This document shows positions 14,631 through 45,747 of a stretch of DNA of 64,000 bases, in pieces; the stretch's first letter is position 1, and each line of letters opens with the position of its first letter. The position numbers and the translations under genes were made by a program. This stretch comes from Christensenella timonensis (GTDB lineage: Bacteria > Bacillota > Clostridia > Christensenellales > Christensenellaceae), in contig NZ_FLKP01000002.1 of NCBI RefSeq assembly GCF_900087015.1, positions 1,612,001 to 1,676,000 on the forward strand. The letters run 5' to 3'. Under the pieces are notes generated by a model, which worked only from the letters and a program-made list of their open reading frames with translations, was not told the DNA's origin and ran no database searches.

Positions 14631-15596
14631 ATGAAAATGAAATGGAAATCGGTCATTGGTATCGGGCTGGCGGTTCTTTTAGCCATAATGTTTACCGCCT
14701 GTGCACCAATAGAGGAAGAAGTAAGCGAATCGCCGAGCAATGCGGTACAAATCAACCCGCTCCCCGAAGCGATCAGCAAAGACAAGAGCAGCGCGCGCCT
14801 GTATTTTGGATTCATGGACCAGCCGCTGCTCGTGGGGGAATCCCATTCGTTTGATGTTCCCATCAATGAAAGCATTGAAAACTCGATCATCCGCGAGCTG
14901 ATCAAGGGGCCGCTTTCCACGCGTAACGATTTGAAAGCCGTGATCAACCCCAAAACGTCGCTTGTAAGCGTCAGGTCGGAAGGGCAATTTTTGTTTGTCA
15001 CGTTGAGCAGCGATTTTTTGAGTCCGGTAGACGAAAAGGAAAGTAGCGACCCCGCTTACGAAAAAACGCGCCGGATGCTCGCCGTGTATTCGATCGTCAA
15101 CACGCTGATCGAGCAGGGGACATATTCACGCGTGCAGATACTGATCGATGATGACGGCATGGGTACCGGACGGCCGCTGACGCTGTCGGAAGCGGGGCTG
15201 GATGGCGAAGGGGCTGTCGAGGCGCTCGAACGCGACGGGGAGATCATTTTGAACGGCAGCAATACGATGCGCGAGATTATGCAGGCGATCGAAAGCAAAG
15301 AATGGGAAACACTTTACAATTATATCGCTTATAAAAACCTGTATGGGCAGGATAAACCGTCCCTCGACGATTTTAAGACGGAAGTGATCTCCAATAAGCT
15401 TACGGTCTCAGACCCGCTCATACGGGATGCAGTCCTCGGCAACGACGGCGTTTCTGAAATCGTTATGGTAGATTATGTCTTAAAGCTGCGCGATGAAGAG
15501 GCGAAAACCATGACGAATATACCGATCCGGCTGATCCAGGAAAACAGTATATGGAAAATTTCCTATACGGTATTCAAGAAAAATTTCCTGACCTGA
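14631..15596 (+). CDS. GerMN-domain lipoprotein
   Basis: Lipoprotein signal with lipobox FTAC (Cys24), so the 321-aa product should be anchored outside the membrane. A GerMN domain spans about residues 55-180 (RELIKGP, then VYSIVNTLIEQG), followed by a C-terminal region of about 110 residues that looks like an NTF2-type fold (a tentative call). GerMN domains occur in spore germination protein GerM and in the actinobacterial LpqB, which works with the MtrAB two-component system. Here too it follows a kinase gene, after 10 bases, suggesting a link to that sensor. Confidence 0.8.
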   Translation: MKMKWKSVIGIGLAVLLAIMFTACAPIEEEVSESPSNAVQINPLPEAISKDKSSARLYFGFMDQPLLVGESHSFDVPINESIENSIIRELIKGPLSTRNDLKAVINPKTSLVSVRSEGQFLFVTLSSDFLSPVDEKESSDPAYEKTRRMLAVYSIVNTLIEQGTYSRVQILIDDDGMGTGRPLTLSEAGLDGEGAVEALERDGEIILNGSNTMREIMQAIESKEWETLYNYIAYKNLYGQDKPSLDDFKTEVISNKLTVSDPLIRDAVLGNDGVSEIVMVDYVLKLRDEEAKTMTNIPIRLIQENSIWKISYTVFKKNFLT

Positions 15597-15608
15597 CAGA
15601 GGGGAAAC

Positions 15609-17072
15609 ATGAAAAAAGCGATGCTCGTCTTCCTTGCCGCGGCCCTGCTCCTGACAGGCTGTTCGATCGTCCAGGAAGATAGTCCCACACAAAACAATGA
15701 ATACGAAACGACTTTGCTGATGCAGAACATAGACCTGGCCCCAAGGAGATTTATCAGCCCTGTTTTGTATTTCCTTGATGAGACGGGAAAGAAGTTTTCT
15801 GCGGAACCGCGCAACCTTGAGGTACCGCAAAACGAGCGTGCGGAAACGCAGATCATTGAAGCGCTGATCAGCGGGCCCGTGTCTGAATCGCTGCTGCCGG
15901 TCGCACAGGGCTTTCTCCTCGAGAAAGTGGAGCTGCTGCCGGATGTCATCAATGTCTATTTGAATTTGGAAGAAGGCGTCCATAAATCAGAAGACCAGAT
16001 CATGACTGCCAAACTGGCGATCGCTTCTACCCTGTTTGATTTTTCAGGCGTTACCTATATCAATGTGTTTTTGGGCGGCAGCCAGACCGCGTACCAAAAC
16101 CTTCCTTCCGGTACCCTGCAAAAATCCAAGAGCAGCTTGTCAGAGGATCTTGAAAAGTACAAAAGGGATGCCAGCGCGCAGACAGCGGTCATCAATGCGA
16201 CCTTGTATTTCCTGGACATTTCAGAACAGTACCTGCTGCCTGAAGTCCGCAGCATCAGTTTTGACAGTATAGAGAAAGAGGACATGATCGCTACGATTGT
16301 ACAAGAGGTTTTGAGCGGCCCGGAGGACACCTATAACCATGCGCCGGTGGTCGATAAGCTAGTCAAGGATGCCCGGCTCAATTCCGTGACGATCATGCAG
16401 GACGAGCAAGAACGCAATATTGTCCAGCTCGATTTTGATAAAATGCCTTTTGCACAGACGAAAGCTTACCAGGATGGAGAGCAGATCACAGCTGCGGCGC
16501 TGACGACGGCGATCACAGGATTCATACCCGATGTCGACGGGGTGCGGATTACGGTCAATGCGGCGGCCGATGCAGAGCTCCCGCCTGAGGGAACCATATA
16601 CCAGGCAGATGATTTTTCATCATTGCTAGGGAACAGCATCGTGTTATACCTGCCTAACAGTACCTATACGCTTTTGAGCAGCGTAACGCGCCTGGTGGAT
16701 CAAAAAAACGCCGGGTATCCCGAAGAATTGCTGCGCGAACTCATGAAGGGGCCTTCTGCGCAGGATAGCAGCGATGTACAGCCAGCCTTCATTTCGGGCA
16801 TCACCATGGACGACGTCAACAGCGTTTACCTTGCGGGCGATCTCGCGGTTGTCGACTTCAAGTCCAGTATCAGCGCAAAGGCGGCCGAACTTTCGGCAAA
16901 AAATGAATTTATCATGATCTACTCGATCGTCAATACACTGACAAATATTAACAATGTAAAGCGTGTCCAATTCCTGGTCGACGGCGAACGCGTCGAATAC
17001 TTAGCGGACGGCAACCAATTGTGCGTGATCGATCCCCTGATCAAAAATCCCGGGATCATACGCCTGACATAG
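15609..17072 (+). CDS. Lipoprotein with three tandem GerMN-like repeats
   Basis: Lipobox LTGC (Cys17) at the N-terminus of a 487-aa exported protein. Three units with the GerMN pattern can be seen, starting near residues 50, 195 and 340: VLYFLDETGKKF...ALISGP, ATLYFLDISEQYLLPE...VLSGPE, and IVLYLPNSTYTLL...LMKGP followed by IYSIVNTLTN. The third is closest to the family pattern. It lies 12 bases after the first GerMN gene with its own GAGGGG site. Probable envelope role; the ligand is unknown. Confidence 0.75.
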   Translation: MKKAMLVFLAAALLLTGCSIVQEDSPTQNNEYETTLLMQNIDLAPRRFISPVLYFLDETGKKFSAEPRNLEVPQNERAETQIIEALISGPVSESLLPVAQGFLLEKVELLPDVINVYLNLEEGVHKSEDQIMTAKLAIASTLFDFSGVTYINVFLGGSQTAYQNLPSGTLQKSKSSLSEDLEKYKRDASAQTAVINATLYFLDISEQYLLPEVRSISFDSIEKEDMIATIVQEVLSGPEDTYNHAPVVDKLVKDARLNSVTIMQDEQERNIVQLDFDKMPFAQTKAYQDGEQITAAALTTAITGFIPDVDGVRITVNAAADAELPPEGTIYQADDFSSLLGNSIVLYLPNSTYTLLSSVTRLVDQKNAGYPEELLRELMKGPSAQDSSDVQPAFISGITMDDVNSVYLAGDLAVVDFKSSISAKAAELSAKNEFIMIYSIVNTLTNINNVKRVQFLVDGERVEYLADGNQLCVIDPLIKNPGIIRLT

Positions 17073-17097
17073 GCATAACAGAAAGGATTGCGAAGGG

Positions 17098-17814
17098 ATG
17101 AAACTGACGGTACTGGGAAAATACGGGCCATATCCGAAAGCGGGAGGCGCTACGACTTCTTATCTCGTGGAATGTTGCGGGAAAAAAATTCTTTTGGATG
17201 CGGGCAGCGGCAGCTTATCCCGTGTCCAGCAATATTGCAGCCTTGACGATCTGGACATGATTATCCTGACGCACCTTCATTCCGACCATTGTGCGGATAT
17301 GTTCGTGCTGCGTTATGCGCCGCTTAAGCATCCGGTTCCTGTTTATCTTCCCGCAACGCCTGCATGGGAGCACGATACGCTGTGTGCATGTGAACGGTTC
17401 AAAGCCAGCAATATAACAGAAGGCCTGGAGCTTGCATTTCCTGCTTTAAAAGTCAGCATCTCCTTTTGTCAAACGCTGCACCCTGTTGAATGCTATGCGG
17501 TCAAATTCCGCGCAGAGGGAAAATCCTTTGTTTTTTCCGGGGATTCACGTTACAGCGACCATCTGGCCGGGTTCTGCCGGGATGCAGATGTCGTAATGCT
17601 GGACAGCGGTTTTCTCAATGAGGATCACCCCCAAAAAATATTGCCTCATATGACGGTTGGGGAAGCTGCACAGACCGCGAAAACGGCGCGGGCAGGAAAA
17701 CTTTTTTTAACACATATCAACCCTACATACTGTGAACAGGATCTTCTGCGCGAGGCATGCGCGATTTTTCAGGACACGATCATTGTTCAGGAAAAAACGG
17801 AATATATCATCTGA
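17098..17814 (+). CDS. MBL-fold metal-dependent hydrolase (RNase Z/YhfI-like)
   Basis: A 238-aa metallo-beta-lactamase fold protein with the intact metal motif THLHSDH, a second His in CQTLHPVE, an Asp in FSGDSRYSD and a late His in LTHINPT. The start MKLTVLGKYGPYPKAGGATTSY is typical of the RNase Z-like/YhfI branch rather than of YycJ, although the gene position after a kinase recalls the Wal operon. The substrate is unknown. It is transcribed with the GerMN genes and comEC. Confidence 0.8.
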   Translation: MKLTVLGKYGPYPKAGGATTSYLVECCGKKILLDAGSGSLSRVQQYCSLDDLDMIILTHLHSDHCADMFVLRYAPLKHPVPVYLPATPAWEHDTLCACERFKASNITEGLELAFPALKVSISFCQTLHPVECYAVKFRAEGKSFVFSGDSRYSDHLAGFCRDADVVMLDSGFLNEDHPQKILPHMTVGEAAQTAKTARAGKLFLTHINPTYCEQDLLREACAIFQDTIIVQEKTEYII

Positions 17815-17825
17815 CGGAGTGTTCC

Positions 17826-20054
17826 ATGAAACCAATTTTGAATCCGAGACCTGTTGTTTTCGTTGCCTTTTTCATGGTAGTTGGAATCCTGTTCTCTTAT
17901 TATTTGGATATTCCGGCGCCCATTTTTTGGATTCTGCTGGCCGGCGGGGCCGGGTTCTTTCTCTGCGCTTTCTTTTTGAAAAACCGTCCTATGCTGGCCG
18001 CCCTGTATCTGGTGTTCTTTTCTATCGGCGGGCTTATTTTCCAAGTACAGTTTTCCACGGACTTTTCGCATATTACACCGGGGCAGGATTATACGATCGA
18101 AGGGTATGTCTCCGACCGTTCCTCTATGTCATCTGCCTATCATTCCTATACGCTCGACAATGTTTCCCTGACGGCAAGAGATGGCCGAAAGGAAAACTTC
18201 AGCAAAAAAGTCCTTTTGTATTCGCGCGAAGTCCTGGATTATGGCGATACCGTGACTTTTGAAAGTAAAGTGAGTCCCCCCGGGGCAACGAGAAATCCCG
18301 GCGGCATGGATGAAGAAATGTATCTTGCCAGCAGGGGAGCGGGATTCAGCTGCTTTTCAGAGGAAGTAAGATCCGTATCCCATTCGCCCGGCTGGTACTA
18401 TTATCCCTTGAAGTTACGGGAGACCCTTGCAGAAAAAATCGACCAAATTTTTTCACCGGAAATGGCGCCCGTCGCAAAAGCCATGTTCCTCGGCGTCAAA
18501 AATGACCTTACGGAGGAAATGCGCGATACATTTTCAAAAACGGGGATTGCGCACATCCTTGCCGTGTCCGGCCTGCATGTCGCGATCATTGCTTTCGCAT
18601 TTAATTGGCTGTGCCGCAAATTGCGTATCCGCCGCAATGTCCGTTTCAGTATCAATATCGCAGTATTGTTATTTTATGCCTTGCTGACAGGTTTTGCCCC
18701 TTCCATTATCCGCGCTGTCCTGATGATGCTCTTTTTGATCATCGGCCAATGGATGTTTAAAAAAAGGGATACGCTGACCTTCCTTGCAGCGGCAATGGTC
18801 ATTACCTTGTTTTTCAACGCGCCCCAGCTTTTTACGGCAGGTTTCTTGATGTCATATGGCGTCCTTTTCGGATTGCTTTGCCTGGGGCCGCCGCTTACAC
18901 GTTTACTGCAAAAGATCAAGATGGACAAGGCAAGGCTGGCAATGCCGCTTGCAACCTCCGTCAGCGCGACGGCGTCTGTTTTCCCGCTGTCCGCCTACTA
19001 TTTCAATAATATCGCGCTCGCGGCGCCGGTTGCCAACCTGTTCGCGATCCCACTCGCCGGAATCATCGTAGCATTTACGGGCATTGGCTCCGTCCTGGCG
19101 CTTTTTGCGCTGCCAGCCGGGCACGCTTTTGCATTTCCGGCAGAGCTCTGCCTGCAGGCCCTTACATGGCTTAACGGGATGCTCGCCAGTACCGCCTTCG
19201 GCTACATTGAAATATACCGCTTTCCGATCTGGATAGGGGCCGTCGTTTTCATCATCATCTTTTTCTGTTCAGACTATGTCCTGTTACGCAATAAAGTGAA
19301 AATGGCGGTTGCCGGGCTTCTGGCCGCACTGATCATGTGCTTTGGTATCAGCTCGGCTATCGCGCACTCAAGCAGCCTGAAGGTTGTTGCTTTGGATGTG
19401 GGCACCGGGGACGCCATCCATATTTCCGTGCAGGGCAAAGAATACCTGATCGACAATGGCGGCAACCCGCAATACTCGCAAATCAATGATTATGCAAAGA
19501 AGAACCGCCTCGTTTTCGACGGTGTGGTTATCACGAACGACCGGACAAAAAACCTGAAAGAGCTGGTACAGGCAAAGAGGGTAAACAGGCTTTATGTCCC
19601 CCTAAATTATGTGCCGAAAGACTACGACGCAAATTTGGAAATGAAATATTACGCACTGTATGATAAAATAGAATTAGCAGGCGATGTCTATCTGGACGTG
19701 GTCGGGGACGACCAGAAGCATCTTTCCCTGGTTTTGTATCAGGATGGCCGGCCTATTTGCCTGTTGATGCAAAATAAAACCGGTGACCTTCTGTATCAGG
19801 AGCATGTCCCTATTGTAAAATTGCCCAACGGCGGTGAAAAAGACGCTGCCAACAGTCGATTGCTCAAAGCATGGTCTCCGGATTATGCCGTGATCTCTGT
19901 AAAAGAAGGCAACAGCAAAGGCCTGCCGGATCGCGGGCTTTTGGATTTACTCGATGAAATGCATATCGACACGCTGGCCACGCCACAGACAGGCGCAGTG
20001 ACGTTTACAGTCGACCGGGAAGGCCGGATCAGCGTCACTACGGAAAAGAAATAA
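17826..20054 (+). CDS. comEC: ComEC/Rec2-family DNA uptake channel with a degenerate MBL domain
   Basis: The 742-aa membrane protein has the usual order: N-terminal helices with a DUF4131 region, the competence domain (KTGIAHILAVSGLHVAII at about residues 235-255), many helices, and a C-terminal MBL-like domain starting at LKVVALDVGTGDAIHI. In canonical ComEC this last domain has metal motifs of HxHxDH and GHHGS type. Here the equivalents read VITNDRTKN and LPNGGE, so the metal site looks lost. The channel part appears intact. ATG 17826 follows a CGGAG site; the longer in-frame start at 17757 lies inside the preceding gene. holA follows, as in many Firmicutes. Confidence 0.88.
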   Translation: MKPILNPRPVVFVAFFMVVGILFSYYLDIPAPIFWILLAGGAGFFLCAFFLKNRPMLAALYLVFFSIGGLIFQVQFSTDFSHITPGQDYTIEGYVSDRSSMSSAYHSYTLDNVSLTARDGRKENFSKKVLLYSREVLDYGDTVTFESKVSPPGATRNPGGMDEEMYLASRGAGFSCFSEEVRSVSHSPGWYYYPLKLRETLAEKIDQIFSPEMAPVAKAMFLGVKNDLTEEMRDTFSKTGIAHILAVSGLHVAIIAFAFNWLCRKLRIRRNVRFSINIAVLLFYALLTGFAPSIIRAVLMMLFLIIGQWMFKKRDTLTFLAAAMVITLFFNAPQLFTAGFLMSYGVLFGLLCLGPPLTRLLQKIKMDKARLAMPLATSVSATASVFPLSAYYFNNIALAAPVANLFAIPLAGIIVAFTGIGSVLALFALPAGHAFAFPAELCLQALTWLNGMLASTAFGYIEIYRFPIWIGAVVFIIIFFCSDYVLLRNKVKMAVAGLLAALIMCFGISSAIAHSSSLKVVALDVGTGDAIHISVQGKEYLIDNGGNPQYSQINDYAKKNRLVFDGVVITNDRTKNLKELVQAKRVNRLYVPLNYVPKDYDANLEMKYYALYDKIELAGDVYLDVVGDDQKHLSLVLYQDGRPICLLMQNKTGDLLYQEHVPIVKLPNGGEKDAANSRLLKAWSPDYAVISVKEGNSKGLPDRGLLDLLDEMHIDTLATPQTGAVTFTVDREGRISVTTEKK

Positions 20055-31461: not shown

Positions 31462-32733
31462 ATGGATTTGAAGGAATATATTTGCCGTCATTTTAAGATC
31501 GACGCCCCGTTGGTCGATTTCGTGAACGACTGCGAGCGCGACGTACGCCATGTTTTTCGCGGTTTTGAGGAGACCGCGCAGGCAAACCAGTTCAAGGTAT
31601 TGGATGCTTTCCAAAAAAACAATGTGTCGGCACGGCATTTTTATGCGTCCACCGGTTATGGCTACGGTGACGAGGGAAGGGACAAGCTTTCCCAGGTGTT
31701 TGCCGATGCGTTTGGTGCGGAATCTGCCATTGTTTCGCCTATGCTCATGAGCGGTACGCATGCAATCTCTACCGCTTTATTCGGGCTGCTTCGTCCGGGC
31801 GATACGCTGTTCTCATTGACAGGGGAGCCGTACGATACGCTTCTTTGCACGCTGCGTGGCGCCAGCGGTTCCCTGGAGGAATTCGATATTCAATTTGACA
31901 GCATCCCGCTTCGCGCAAATGGGGCGATCGACGTACAATCCGCCCTTGAGCGGATCAAAAGCGATCCCGGTATCAAAGTCGTTTATTTCCAGCGTTCCAC
32001 CGGTTATGAGATACGTCCCGCATTCACAACGGATTACCTCGCCGAAGTGATCGGACATGTCAAACGGGATTTTCCTGATAAAATTATTATGGTGGATAAC
32101 TGTTACGGCGAATTCGTATGTATGGACGAGCCCGCTTCGCGCGGCGCGGACATCATCGCCGGCTCGCTGATCAAAAACCCGGGCGGCGGCATTGCGCCTA
32201 CGGGCGGGTATATTGCCGGAAAACAGAAATTGATCGACAGGATTGCCGAACGCTTTTCCGCGCCGGGGATCGGCACGGAGATCGGTTCGTACGCTTTTGG
32301 CTACCAGCAATTTTACCAGGGCTTTTTCATGGCGCCGCATACGGTATGCCAGGCGCTAAAGGGCGTATGTCTTGCCGCGCGTGTGTTTGAGCGCTTAGGA
32401 TATGCCACGCAGCCGTCTTTTGAGGCTGCCAGGGGCGATATCACGCAGTCCATCATCTTTGGCAGCGAACAACCCCTCACAGACTTCGTACGCGGTATAC
32501 AGCGCGCCTCTGCGATCGACGGCAATGTTGTGCCATATGCCTGGGATATGCCTGGTTACGACGACCAGGTGATCATGGCTGCCGGTACGTTCGTACAGGG
32601 CGCTTCCGTGGAACTGACGGCAGACGCGCCCATCCGCGAACCATATGCCGCCTATTTGCAGGGCGCACTGACGTATGAGCATGCCAAACTGGGCATATTA
32701 TACGCCCTGCAAAATATGAATATCCGCTTATAA
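31462..32733 (+). CDS. PLP-dependent methionine gamma-lyase/YnbB-family protein
   Basis: A 423-aa fold-type I PLP enzyme of the group often annotated as aluminium resistance protein or methionine gamma-lyase family. The likely PLP lysine is Lys238 in AGSLIKNPGGGIAP, and the upstream Asp is in IIMVDNCYGEF. The true reaction of YnbB is not established. It follows miaA by 21 bases with a TTGGAG site, a neighbourhood it keeps in other Firmicutes. Its 3' end faces the recombinase gene with only 7 bases between stops and no terminator. Confidence 0.85.
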   Translation: MDLKEYICRHFKIDAPLVDFVNDCERDVRHVFRGFEETAQANQFKVLDAFQKNNVSARHFYASTGYGYGDEGRDKLSQVFADAFGAESAIVSPMLMSGTHAISTALFGLLRPGDTLFSLTGEPYDTLLCTLRGASGSLEEFDIQFDSIPLRANGAIDVQSALERIKSDPGIKVVYFQRSTGYEIRPAFTTDYLAEVIGHVKRDFPDKIIMVDNCYGEFVCMDEPASRGADIIAGSLIKNPGGGIAPTGGYIAGKQKLIDRIAERFSAPGIGTEIGSYAFGYQQFYQGFFMAPHTVCQALKGVCLAARVFERLGYATQPSFEAARGDITQSIIFGSEQPLTDFVRGIQRASAIDGNVVPYAWDMPGYDDQVIMAAGTFVQGASVELTADAPIREPYAAYLQGALTYEHAKLGILYALQNMNIRL

Positions 32734-32740
32734 AACAAGG

Positions 32741-33796
32741 TTATTTCCGCAATTTCACAGCTTTTGAAGCGCGTTTCCGGTTGTTTTCAGACATCGCGGC
32801 GTAATGCTTACGCGTCGTATTGACGTCCTTGTGGCCAAGCACATCCGCCACAAGGTAAATATCGCCCGTTTCGTCATAAAGCATCGTACCATAGGTGCTG
32901 CGCAGCTTATGCGGCGATATTTTTTTTAAGGGACTGACGATACGCGCATATTTTTTGACCATCAGTTCAACGCTGCGCACAGACATCCGCTTCCCCTGCA
33001 TGGACAGGAAGAGAGGGGAGGAGAGGGCATAATTGCCGCAATCCTTACGCTTATCAAGATAAGTATTTAACGCCTGCGCCGTCTCGTCGTCAAAATACAG
33101 CATTACCTGGTTTCCGCCTTTGCGCGTAACGGTAAAACATCCGTTTTTAAAATCAAGGTCGGAAACATTCAATGATACAAGCTCTGAAACGCGAATTCCT
33201 GTCGTTAAAAACAATGTGAGGATTGCCAAATCACGCACAGCGTTTTTTTTATGGTATTGCCTTTGCTTTTCCGTCAGCTGCGCACCGCTTTCCACAACGT
33301 CCAGCAGGTCGGCCACTTCGTCGGCCTCCAGGCGTATGATTGCTTTTTCATGCAATTTGGGCGTATCCAGAAGCTGGCATACATTTTGCTCCAGCACGCC
33401 TTTTTTATAATAATGCTTGAAGAACGAACGCAGACAAGCGACTTTTCTTGCTTTGCCGCGTTCCTGGTTCGATATAAACCTTTCGTCATTATCTGACGAA
33501 GCGTAGAGATTGAGATAATCCAGAAAGAGGTACAGGTCGTCGACCGTGATGGATTTTAAATCATCCTGCGTCAAATCGGAGACCGCTTTATTTTGAAAAC
33601 GCGGAAGCTCCTTTACCAGAAATTGAAAAAAGATACGCAGGTCGGCCGCATAGTTGACGCGTGTGAGGATCGTAGAATTATTTTCCATAGCGATAAAAAA
33701 ACTCGTCGTATACGGAGGAAGGTCTCGCATGATCTCGCGCAACTTCAATGTCATTTTCTGGTTCAAGTCCTGATGGTAATTCGGTGCATCGCCCAT
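32741..33796 (-). CDS. XerS-like tyrosine recombinase
   Basis: A 351-aa recombinase with all catalytic residues: Arg202 (TTGIRVSEL), Lys226 (TRKGG), His296 and Arg299 (SPHKLRSTYG), His322 (VLGHKDVNT) and Tyr332 (KHYAA). It is longer than XerC/D (about 300 aa), and its N-terminus (DLPPYTTSFFIAMENNS, then a core-binding domain) resembles the single recombinase XerS of streptococci more than phage integrases. ATG 33796 has a GAGG site; a longer in-frame ORF to 33916 would read through promoter and palindrome. No mobile-element genes accompany it, so a chromosome-dimer role is plausible. Confidence 0.8.
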   Translation of the reverse strand: MGDAPNYHQDLNQKMTLKLREIMRDLPPYTTSFFIAMENNSTILTRVNYAADLRIFFQFLVKELPRFQNKAVSDLTQDDLKSITVDDLYLFLDYLNLYASSDNDERFISNQERGKARKVACLRSFFKHYYKKGVLEQNVCQLLDTPKLHEKAIIRLEADEVADLLDVVESGAQLTEKQRQYHKKNAVRDLAILTLFLTTGIRVSELVSLNVSDLDFKNGCFTVTRKGGNQVMLYFDDETAQALNTYLDKRKDCGNYALSSPLFLSMQGKRMSVRSVELMVKKYARIVSPLKKISPHKLRSTYGTMLYDETGDIYLVADVLGHKDVNTTRKHYAAMSENNRKRASKAVKLRK

Positions 33797-33838
33797 AACA
33801 AACCTCACAAATCCCGCATAATACTGCCGTTTAGCTAC

Positions 33839-33867
33839 AGTATAGCACATCGCGCTTCTGATAGCAA
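33839..33867 (-). promoter_or_regulatory. Extended -10 promoter of the recombinase gene
   Basis: On the - strand, TTGCTA (33867-33862), 17 bases, TATACT (33844-33839) preceded by TGC (extended -10). The -35 box touches the large inverted repeat, so occupation of the repeat could affect transcription. Confidence 0.65.
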
Positions 33868-33904
33868 TAACTATTCGCAAAACTTGTGTTTTGCGAATAG
33901 TTAT
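33867..33904. repeat. Perfect 17-bp inverted repeat with 4-base spacer; candidate dif/recombination site
   Basis: ATAACTATTCGCAAAAC (33867-33883) and its exact complement (33888-33904) flank TTGT. No T-tract follows on either strand and the stem is AT-rich, so a terminator is unlikely. It lies between the lplA stop and the recombinase promoter. Single-recombinase Xer systems such as XerS keep their dif site next to the gene, and the strand bias of the window flips here. The assignment as dif is inference. Confidence 0.55.
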
Positions 33905-33934
33905 AAGTTGGCCCATTTGTCTCTCTTCTCTTTC

Positions 33935-34921
33935 TTACAGAATACATTCCATGATTTCATCCTCCGAAATCATGTGAAATATTTGGCCTGCATTTGCTTC
34001 ACGAAGCGCACTTCGTATCGAGGCTTCATGGTAGTCGGTACCGATGAGCCTGTTGATCAGCACGTCGATATCTCCCTGGCAAAAAAAATCGCCATAAAAT
34101 ATACAGCGATTGATCTTACCGTCTTTGATATTCAGACAGCACTGCATCTTTCCACCGGCGAATTTTCTTTCGCGAACCACTTCAAAGACCAATTGGCTGC
34201 CGTAATTCCATTCCCATGAGCGGAATTTTTCTTCTGCGATGTTTTGCGCAGCCTTCCTGTCCTGTTCCGTCAATTGATATACCTGTACATTTTGTAACAG
34301 CCTTTCAAGCATTTCTGATTTGAATTGAGCGGGTGTCATATCGGTTTTGAGATAATCAGCGATATTTCCTACACGCTGGCGTACAGAATCGATTCCCTTA
34401 GACGTGATTTTATCTTTTGAGGGGGTCAGCGCCGCTACCATTTCACCAATATCGGTTTGGAACAACAGCGAACCATGATGTACCTTCCCCTTGCGCGTTA
34501 CATATTGCGCATTGCCGGAGATTTTTTTCCCATCCACTAGAATGTCGTTTCTGCCATTGGCATATGCATTTACCCCCATTGCGCAAAGCGCCGCTATTAC
34601 ATTTTTTGTATATTCCGCAAAATCAATTTCATCAAAATTAACATTTTGAACTATATGGCTGAACTGCCATCCGCCCATATCGGTATAAATCGTCCCGCCG
34701 CCACTTGCACGGCGCACGATCTGTATCCCCTTTCCCTTTGCATAGCGTTCGTCGATTTCTTTGTGGATATTCTGGAAGTGCCCTACCATAAGGGTCGGCT
34801 TTGTCTGCCAAAACAAAAATACAGGCCCTAAAATAGCGCCTGTACCCACTTGCTCCATCAGATACTGCTCCAGTCCAAAATTGAAATAAGCGTCTGTTGA
34901 GCCTGTTTCTACATATATCAT
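33935..34921 (-). CDS. lplA: Lipoate-protein ligase A
   Basis: Activates lipoate with ATP and transfers it to lipoyl domains (GcvH, E2 subunits). The 328-aa protein has the family motifs RRASGGGTIYTD, KISGNAQYVTRKG and HHGSLLF and a C-terminal accessory domain. The start codon overlaps the lipA stop by 4 bases (ATGA), so both lipoate salvage and de novo insertion are made from one message. No lipoylated substrate protein lies in the window. Confidence 0.93.
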   Translation of the reverse strand: MIYVETGSTDAYFNFGLEQYLMEQVGTGAILGPVFLFWQTKPTLMVGHFQNIHKEIDERYAKGKGIQIVRRASGGGTIYTDMGGWQFSHIVQNVNFDEIDFAEYTKNVIAALCAMGVNAYANGRNDILVDGKKISGNAQYVTRKGKVHHGSLLFQTDIGEMVAALTPSKDKITSKGIDSVRQRVGNIADYLKTDMTPAQFKSEMLERLLQNVQVYQLTEQDRKAAQNIAEEKFRSWEWNYGSQLVFEVVRERKFAGGKMQCCLNIKDGKINRCIFYGDFFCQGDIDVLINRLIGTDYHEASIRSALREANAGQIFHMISEDEIMECIL

Positions 34922-45659: not shown

Positions 45660-45703
45660 CGCTTTTTTTCGTTTTACATAAAAAAACAAAATTAAAAGGC
45701 ATT

Positions 45704-45731
45704 AAAAAACCGCTTAATAAAGCGGTTTTTT
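45704..45731 (-). terminator. Terminator of the malate dehydrogenase-malic enzyme operon
   Basis: A perfect 12-bp stem (45704-45715 with 45720-45731), 4-base loop, with A/T runs on both flanks, 16 bases after the malic enzyme stop. Confidence 0.88.
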
Positions 45732-45747
45732 AAACATCCTATTATGC

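Follow-up and report, generated by a model that had tools for sequence, protein, structure and literature searches.

A symmetric palindrome beside an XerS-like recombinase gene of Christensenella timonensis, a candidate dif site of a single-recombinase Xer system

The palindrome and the recombinase gene

The window analysed here is a 64,000-nt stretch of the Christensenella timonensis genome. It contains a perfect palindrome upstream of a minus-strand tyrosine recombinase gene; the gene on the other side is lplA, for lipoate-protein ligase. The features of the locus are as follows.

31462..32733, plus strand: methionine gamma-lyase family gene, convergent with xerS; it holds the skew maximum at 32435 and is a neighbour in 8 of 10 relatives tested
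32741..33796, minus strand: gene of the XerS-like tyrosine recombinase, 351 aa (Pfam, NCBIfam, catalytic residues)
33839..33844, minus strand: −10 box TATACT of xerS, with a 17-nt spacer from the −35 box
33862..33867, minus strand: −35 box TTGCTA of xerS, which has one base in common with the palindrome
33867..33904, no strand: palindrome, 17+4+17, proposed dif of the XerS-like recombinase (sequence, genome scan, conservation in relatives)
33869..33882, no strand: left arm, 14 bp, AACTATTCGCAAAA, a proposed half-site for the recombinase (62 sites were compared to set the arm limits)
33883..33888, no strand: asymmetric 6-bp centre CTTGTG, reading CACAAG on the strand of xerS, where strand exchange is proposed (site comparison; the second copies at prophages keep part of the centre and one arm)
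33889..33902, no strand: right 14-bp arm TTTTGCGAATAGTT, proposed recombinase half-site (site comparison)
33935..34921, minus strand: lplA, upstream of the palindrome (scan of neighbours)

The two 17-nt arms (33867-33883 and 33888-33904) are 100% complementary with 4 nt between them, as a previous sequence-only reading had described. Base composition predicts 5e-5 perfect 17+17 palindromes with a loop of 0-12 per 64 kb, which rules out a chance palindrome. That reading had proposed a count of copies in the genome as a check; a scan allowing up to 3 mismatches found the palindrome as a single copy in the 2.65-Mb two-contig genome. A second perfect palindrome, 14+4+14 (TTAAAAAACCGCTT/AAGCGGTTTTTTAA), is located at window positions 45702-45733 and looks terminator-like by eye.

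Translation of xerS from the ATG at 33796 gives 351 aa, while an alternative start at 33916 gives 391 aa and reads through the palindrome. The 351-aa form is preferred because the orthologues align from its start. The catalytic set is complete (R202, K226, H296, R299, H322 and Y332), in agreement with the sequence-only reading; the system thus has one tyrosine recombinase with the R-K-H-R-H/W-Y residues of single-recombinase Xer/dif systems. Among 158 distinct homologue matches, R, K, H and R are present in all, the H/W position is H in 153, N in 3 and not covered in 2, and the catalytic Y is present in 156 and not covered in 2. The window protein matches Phage_integrase of Pfam at 112 bits. 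Its best NCBIfam match is XerS at 178.3 bits, followed by XerA, XerC and XerD at 149-162 bits; the XerH profile matches weakly, at 45 bits. The description as XerS-like made from the sequence is refined by this: XerS is the closest family, but the window protein (178 bits) and three homologues (181.9-195.5 bits) do not reach the cut-off of the XerS equivalog NF003462, 267 bits.

The recombinase is widespread in the order Christensenellales. Of the 18 family genomes, 15 contain a recombinase match, among them 12 of the 12 more complete ones. Full-length orthologues were found in 14 family genomes including our own, with 53-89% identity in the relatives, and the remaining match, in G017, is weak. 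At E≤1e-40 the recombinase is present in 266 of the 297 order genomes and in 236 of the 247 more complete ones; among the genomes listed, all but two carry one match. One family genome with 5% contamination, which may be a mixed assembly, has two XerS-like genes (G010:C31 and C34), each with its own site.

Tyrosine recombinases beside palindromic att sites are common in mobile elements. The palindrome might thus be the attachment site or the remnant of an element, with the neighbouring recombinase as its integrase, and phages do insert at this site (see below). The eight neighbours scanned, however, are housekeeping genes (mutS, mutL, miaA, the methionine gamma-lyase family gene, lplA, a radical-SAM protein gene that is lipA judged from its position, rnhA and proC). 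No mobile-element gene was found among them, just as the sequence-only reading had said. We rejected an element attachment site because the recombinase occurs in 266 of the 297 genomes of the order (as one match in all but two of the genomes listed); the ORFs scanned in the inserted phages are also without an integrase. We regard this origin as highly improbable.

The XerCD dif is 28 bp long with the XerD arm TTATGTNAA. A separate XerC/XerD pair with a canonical dif elsewhere would have spoken against the candidate, according to the sequence-only reading; within the searches that follow, this result did not appear. None of the 18 family genomes has an XerD over the family cut-off, which 4 of 14 control genomes exceed, and none of the 19 members of the order within the class sample has an XerD at E≤1e-80. 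Six further tyrosine recombinases of our own genome pass the Pfam cut-off, and none of them reaches the cut-off for XerC or XerD; the XerC comparison covered these six. A seventh (C2:600424, 50 bits to XerD) appears in the XerD search alone. The canonical dif core ATAAN6TTATGTNAA gave no exact match, and a canonical dif elsewhere was rejected on one-mismatch matches, which were fewer (18) than for the reversed control (30). With no exact dif core found, no XerD over the cut-off in the family and no XerC over it among the six recombinases scanned, the system probably lies outside XerCD/dif.

Beyond the order, the class sample contained an XerS-like match at E≤1e-50 in 88 of 391 genomes, 70 of them outside the order. 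Of these 70, 37 also have XerD at E≤1e-80, indicating that XerS-like proteins and XerD coexist outside the order. A scan of named genomes with the palindrome alone returned at least 117 stretches, including Christensenella, Butyrivibrio and records named Lachnospiraceae. The first 80 stretches comprised 43 with an XerS-like gene (E<1e-50), one with a weak match and 36 without; whole-genome searches for 17 of the 36 found an XerS-like gene at E≤3.5e-96 in all 17. Three large plasmids also carry a version of the site. Lactococcus cremoris pUC073A (L267) has a full-scoring xerS and a site scoring 30/34 against the consensus, 1.9 kb from the gene. Cytobacillus pBO1 (L268) has a full-scoring XerS and a site ∼65 kb from the best xerS match; the two plasmid XerS proteins score 407 and 457 bits on the XerS equivalog profile. 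Butyrivibrio fibrisolvens pNP243 (L269) has a version of the site and no XerS match at E≤1e-10.

Conservation of the site and its position at the terminus

The sequence-only reading had proposed a search for the same palindrome beside orthologous genes, and conservation was found in the related genomes. We scanned 74 loci (15 of the family, 19 further loci of the order and 40 chosen to cover families) with the consensus AACTATTCGYAAAA-SACAAS-TTTTRCGAATAGTT and a calling limit of 26 out of a maximum of 34. The site, composed of 14-bp arms AACTATTCGYAAAA and an asymmetric 6-bp centre, is located beside the orthologue in 62 of 74 loci. Called sites score at least 26, and the next-best position of each locus scores 18-24. 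In 56 of the 62 loci the called site lies within 400 nt upstream of the xerS-like gene. In a palindrome scan of the family alone, 14 of 15 loci, our own included, carried one of related sequence upstream of the orthologous gene, and the fifteenth had a weaker one. Twelve of the 74 loci fall under the score limit, two of them with weaker dyads (L090 and L110). Four uncalled loci have a more distant site (37 kb in G151, 29 kb in G072, 2.5 kb in G183 and 4 kb in G241), and no site near xerS was seen in the other six (three of family f14, L087, L104 and L118). A shorter pattern with one mismatch matches 156 of the 297 order genomes, ∼9 of them more than once, against ∼11 for the reversed control (counted by eye). 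It misses 141 of 297, many of which carry variants outside the pattern, e.g. the TTAAA form.

The dyad is often preserved where the arms change. Among 45 distinct sites, the arms depart from the consensus symmetrically in 39 cells and asymmetrically in 43, while permuted arm pairings gave a mean of 10.1 symmetric cells and a maximum of 20 in 10,000 permutations; this comparison gives no strict probability because the sites are related by descent. The arm variants AAGACTTCGT, AACTATATGT, AACTATGCGC and TTCGTTAAA are each paired with the matching partner arm. The centre retains an asymmetric ACA core whose direction relative to xerS may be either way (43 versus 19), with a centre composition that is biased because the orientation was set by the best consensus match.

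A perfect stem between lplA and xerS could also be an RNA hairpin, acting as a terminator or a leader element for one of these genes. No terminator-like site was found within 33700-34050, so the earlier statement that the palindrome is not a terminator stands, and the palindrome region has no Rfam match at E≤1; a terminator or RNA element was rejected on these two results. Against a hairpin, lplA was not found beside the site and xerS in the 10 relatives tested (stretches reaching up to ∼1.5 kb beyond xerS), the direction of the centre relative to xerS varies as given above, and phage records carry the site. We give this explanation next to no probability.

The sequence-only reading had also seen in this window the strand flip expected at a terminus, and this was borne out. 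The cumulative GC-skew maximum is located at window position 32435, 1.5 kb from the palindrome. Stretches sampled along the same contig (contig 2) show positive GC skew between 390 kb and 1580 kb and negative skew beyond 1690 kb; the switch lies inside the window, and dnaA is located at 392 kb. In three single-contig congeners the skew maximum lies 0.9, 1.3 and 1.3 kb from the site, and dnaA is 44, 53 and 53% of the genome away from it. The test was extended to 20 genomes of 20 families with 20 kb on each side of the site (8 kb for two right flanks). Skew flips from plus to minus at the site in 16 of the 20 genomes, compared with 2 of 38 control splits within full-length flanks (Fisher p = 8e-9), and in 15 of 20 when 8-kb halves are used. 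The skew peak of the 16 flipping genomes lies up to 8.7 kb from the site. There is no flip in G180 (left value zero to three decimals), G040 (flat), G072 (both sides positive; the site is 29 kb from xerS) and G056 (both sides negative; a prophage is present there). The site is thus a single dyad in non-coding DNA at the shift of GC skew, as in single-recombinase Xer/dif systems.

Overlap with the xerS promoter and phages inserted at the site

The palindrome had been described as touching the −35 box of the recombinase gene, and the overlap is exactly one base: the first base of TTGCTA is the last base of the palindrome, and a 17-nt spacer separates it from TATACT. We compared 156 distinct upstream regions of homologues, many of which were taken for holding the palindrome, so that its frequency in this set is no estimate. 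A site was present within 400 nt in 90 of the 156 regions. It directly precedes a −35/−10 pattern in 28 of these 90, compared with 2.2% of arbitrary positions. Isolated half-sites occur in 47 of 156 regions and in 3.8% of shuffled ones. They were found in 0 of the 28 regions where the dif abuts the promoter, in 21 of the 62 where it lies farther away (13 of them immediately at the −35 box) and in 26 of the 66 with no dif near (1 at the −35 box). The difference between 0/28 and 21/62 has a Fisher p of 1e-4 when related regions are treated as independent. Examples of a half-site directly ahead of the xerS −35 box, with the full palindrome standing off, are L157, L166, L199, L202, L222 and L228.

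These counts bear on the alternative that the sequence-only reading had offered, an operator for autoregulation. In the strict form of this alternative, the palindrome would do no more than control the recombinase gene, and recombination would take place elsewhere. The abutment on the promoter in 28 of 90 regions and the 13 half-sites at the −35 box favour an operator, and an operator would be conserved too, since the site overlaps the promoter here. However, site and gene are 29-54 kb apart in four genomes of family f3 (G072, G092, G151 and G163) and on different contigs in at least two others (G309 and G316, judged from contig sizes). The asymmetric centre, the terminus position and the single copy are all needless for an operator, which would not act as a phage insertion point either. 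An operator role alone is very unlikely. Operator function is probably additional rather than a rival: we read the palindrome as a dif with a probable second role as operator, and the pattern of half-sites and promoters suggests autoregulation by occupancy. Since the site overlaps the xerS promoter in this genus, the bound recombinase probably represses its own gene.

Phage insertions were found at the site in relatives. A Microviridae capsid gene is present in just 2 of the 297 order genomes, in both cases within a prophage at the site. These gokushovirus prophages are 5,339 bp (G241, L298 8212-13551) and 5,197 bp (G251, L299 7587-12784) in size, and each lies between an intact palindrome and another copy that retains one arm and a portion of the centre. 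In each prophage the scan covered the four main ORFs, which include capsid, scaffold and rolling-circle Rep genes but no integrase gene; two further ORFs are short. An inovirus-like prophage of ∼5.4 kb is located beside xerS in G056 (L380 ∼14631-20000), between a one-armed and an intact palindrome. Its products are a Rep_trans protein, several short proteins with no family match and a Zot-family protein (21.0 bits against a cut-off of 20.3); Zot-family proteins are assembly ATPases in inoviruses. No integrase was found among the eight ORFs scanned in this prophage.

Viral records also contain the site. In four free Microviridae records a copy lies outside the annotated genes; one of its arms is perfect and the other decayed, and the E-values are weak (0.01-0.1). 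A fifth record has only a poor site. Among 20 viral contigs with an exact half-site, a capsid related to those of the prophages was found in 4, and the other 16 had no match to the proteins of the two prophages or to XerS; several of these 16, with unrelated second arms, are probably chance matches. One stretch, L283, matches XerS as well as a capsid and is probably another prophage at a host xerS. Fourteen viral contigs (L136-L149) have an exact palindrome, mostly with other centres; four are 89-126 kb and the others shorter. No XerS-like match was found in these stretches, and the 12 records searched whole gave weak or no tyrosine recombinase matches.

Because phages with no integrase among the ORFs scanned are inserted between intact and half-degenerate copies, the site recombines in nature. 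This recombination implies a host enzyme, for which the XerS-like recombinase would be the obvious agent. The evidence for recombination is indirect and comes from relatives, through three prophages with a duplicated half. Independent lines nevertheless lend strong support to a recombination site, and the insertions are the strongest evidence among them.

Proposed function and comparison with known Xer systems

The palindrome is very probably the dif of a single-recombinase, XerS-like system for the resolution of chromosome dimers. The proposal of a dif beside an XerS-like recombinase is thus supported by the single copy, the conservation, the terminus position and the prophages at the site. 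In the mechanism that we propose, two XerS-like protomers would bind the two identical 14-bp arms, and two bound sites would synapse as a tetramer. Strand exchange, with its predicted cleavage points, would take place across the asymmetric 6-bp centre, which would give the site its direction. Recombination on a dimeric chromosome would separate the two copies, and FtsK/SpoIIIE would time the reaction at the septum.

On a wider joint reading our opinion is evenly balanced. According to it, a distinct single-recombinase Xer/dif lineage with a fully symmetric dif would occupy the order, parts of the Lachnospiraceae and other Clostridia. Its xerS would be controlled by its own site, either the dif at the promoter or a lone half-site at the −35 box where the dif has moved, so that the level of enzyme would be tied to occupancy. 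Gokushoviruses and inoviruses, which are unrelated ssDNA phages, would lysogenise by copying one arm.

The analysis offers a candidate dif and recombinase for an order of Clostridia in which XerCD-based prediction may miss them. A symmetric site would also be a clean model for how one protein acting on identical arms can give an Xer site its direction. A feedback loop is suggested by the half-site at the xerS promoter, and the insertions suggest a way for gokushoviruses without an integrase, and for an inovirus, to be temperate in Clostridia. The short att sequences are offered for linking uncultured ssDNA phages to hosts. Among the best matches of a literature search that mostly left subscription journals outside, none treated an XerS-like/dif system of Clostridia or Christensenella, or Microviridae using one; on dif with Xer autoregulation, a single review was among the matches listed.

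The system works like single-recombinase Xer systems but is outside the definitions of the XerS equivalog and difSL. According to the excerpts of PMC5357621, streptococci and lactococci encode a single recombinase of ∼350 aa beside a terminus-located site, and here too a single ∼350-aa recombinase gene, with XerS as the best NCBIfam match, lies next to a terminus site. The difSL of the same excerpts is 31 bp long with unequal imperfect arms and an 11-bp centre. In contrast, the present site has equal uninterrupted 14-bp arms and a 6-bp centre, and the proteins score 178-196 bits against the cut-off of 267. As the protein stays below the equivalog cut-off and the site differs from difSL, we rank the system apart from XerS/difSL. 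XerH/difH of Helicobacter and Campylobacter likewise has one recombinase, often beside its site, and most difH rows in the excerpt of PMC2731167 have the core GAAAA-N6-TTTTC, comparable to CGCAAAA-N6-TTTTGCG here; however, the window protein scores 45 bits to XerH, and the difH rows in that excerpt are just partly symmetric.

XerL/dif of Legionella and Coxiella has uninterrupted inverted-repeat arms of 10 and 12 bp, and its dif was found through an element integrated there, flanked by an intact and an altered copy, in the excerpts of PMC9765430. A single recombinase, uninterrupted arms and an element between intact and altered copies are shared with the present system. In L. pneumophila dif and xerL are more than 400 kb apart by the same excerpts, whereas the distance here is at most 400 nt in 56 of 62 loci. 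Integrase-less small ssDNA phages with dif-like flanks, namely gokushovirus and Bacteroidetes microvirus prophages at dif and IMEX such as CTXphi, appear in the excerpts of PMC3091885 and PMC7062461, where enterobacterial gokushovirus prophages have an intact bacterial dif and a variable phage dif. As far as these excerpts go, the prophage pattern found here is that of gokushoviruses at the E. coli dif and of LME-1 at the Legionella dif, but unlike the reported XerC/XerD phage cases, the target is the palindrome of an XerS-like system in Clostridia.
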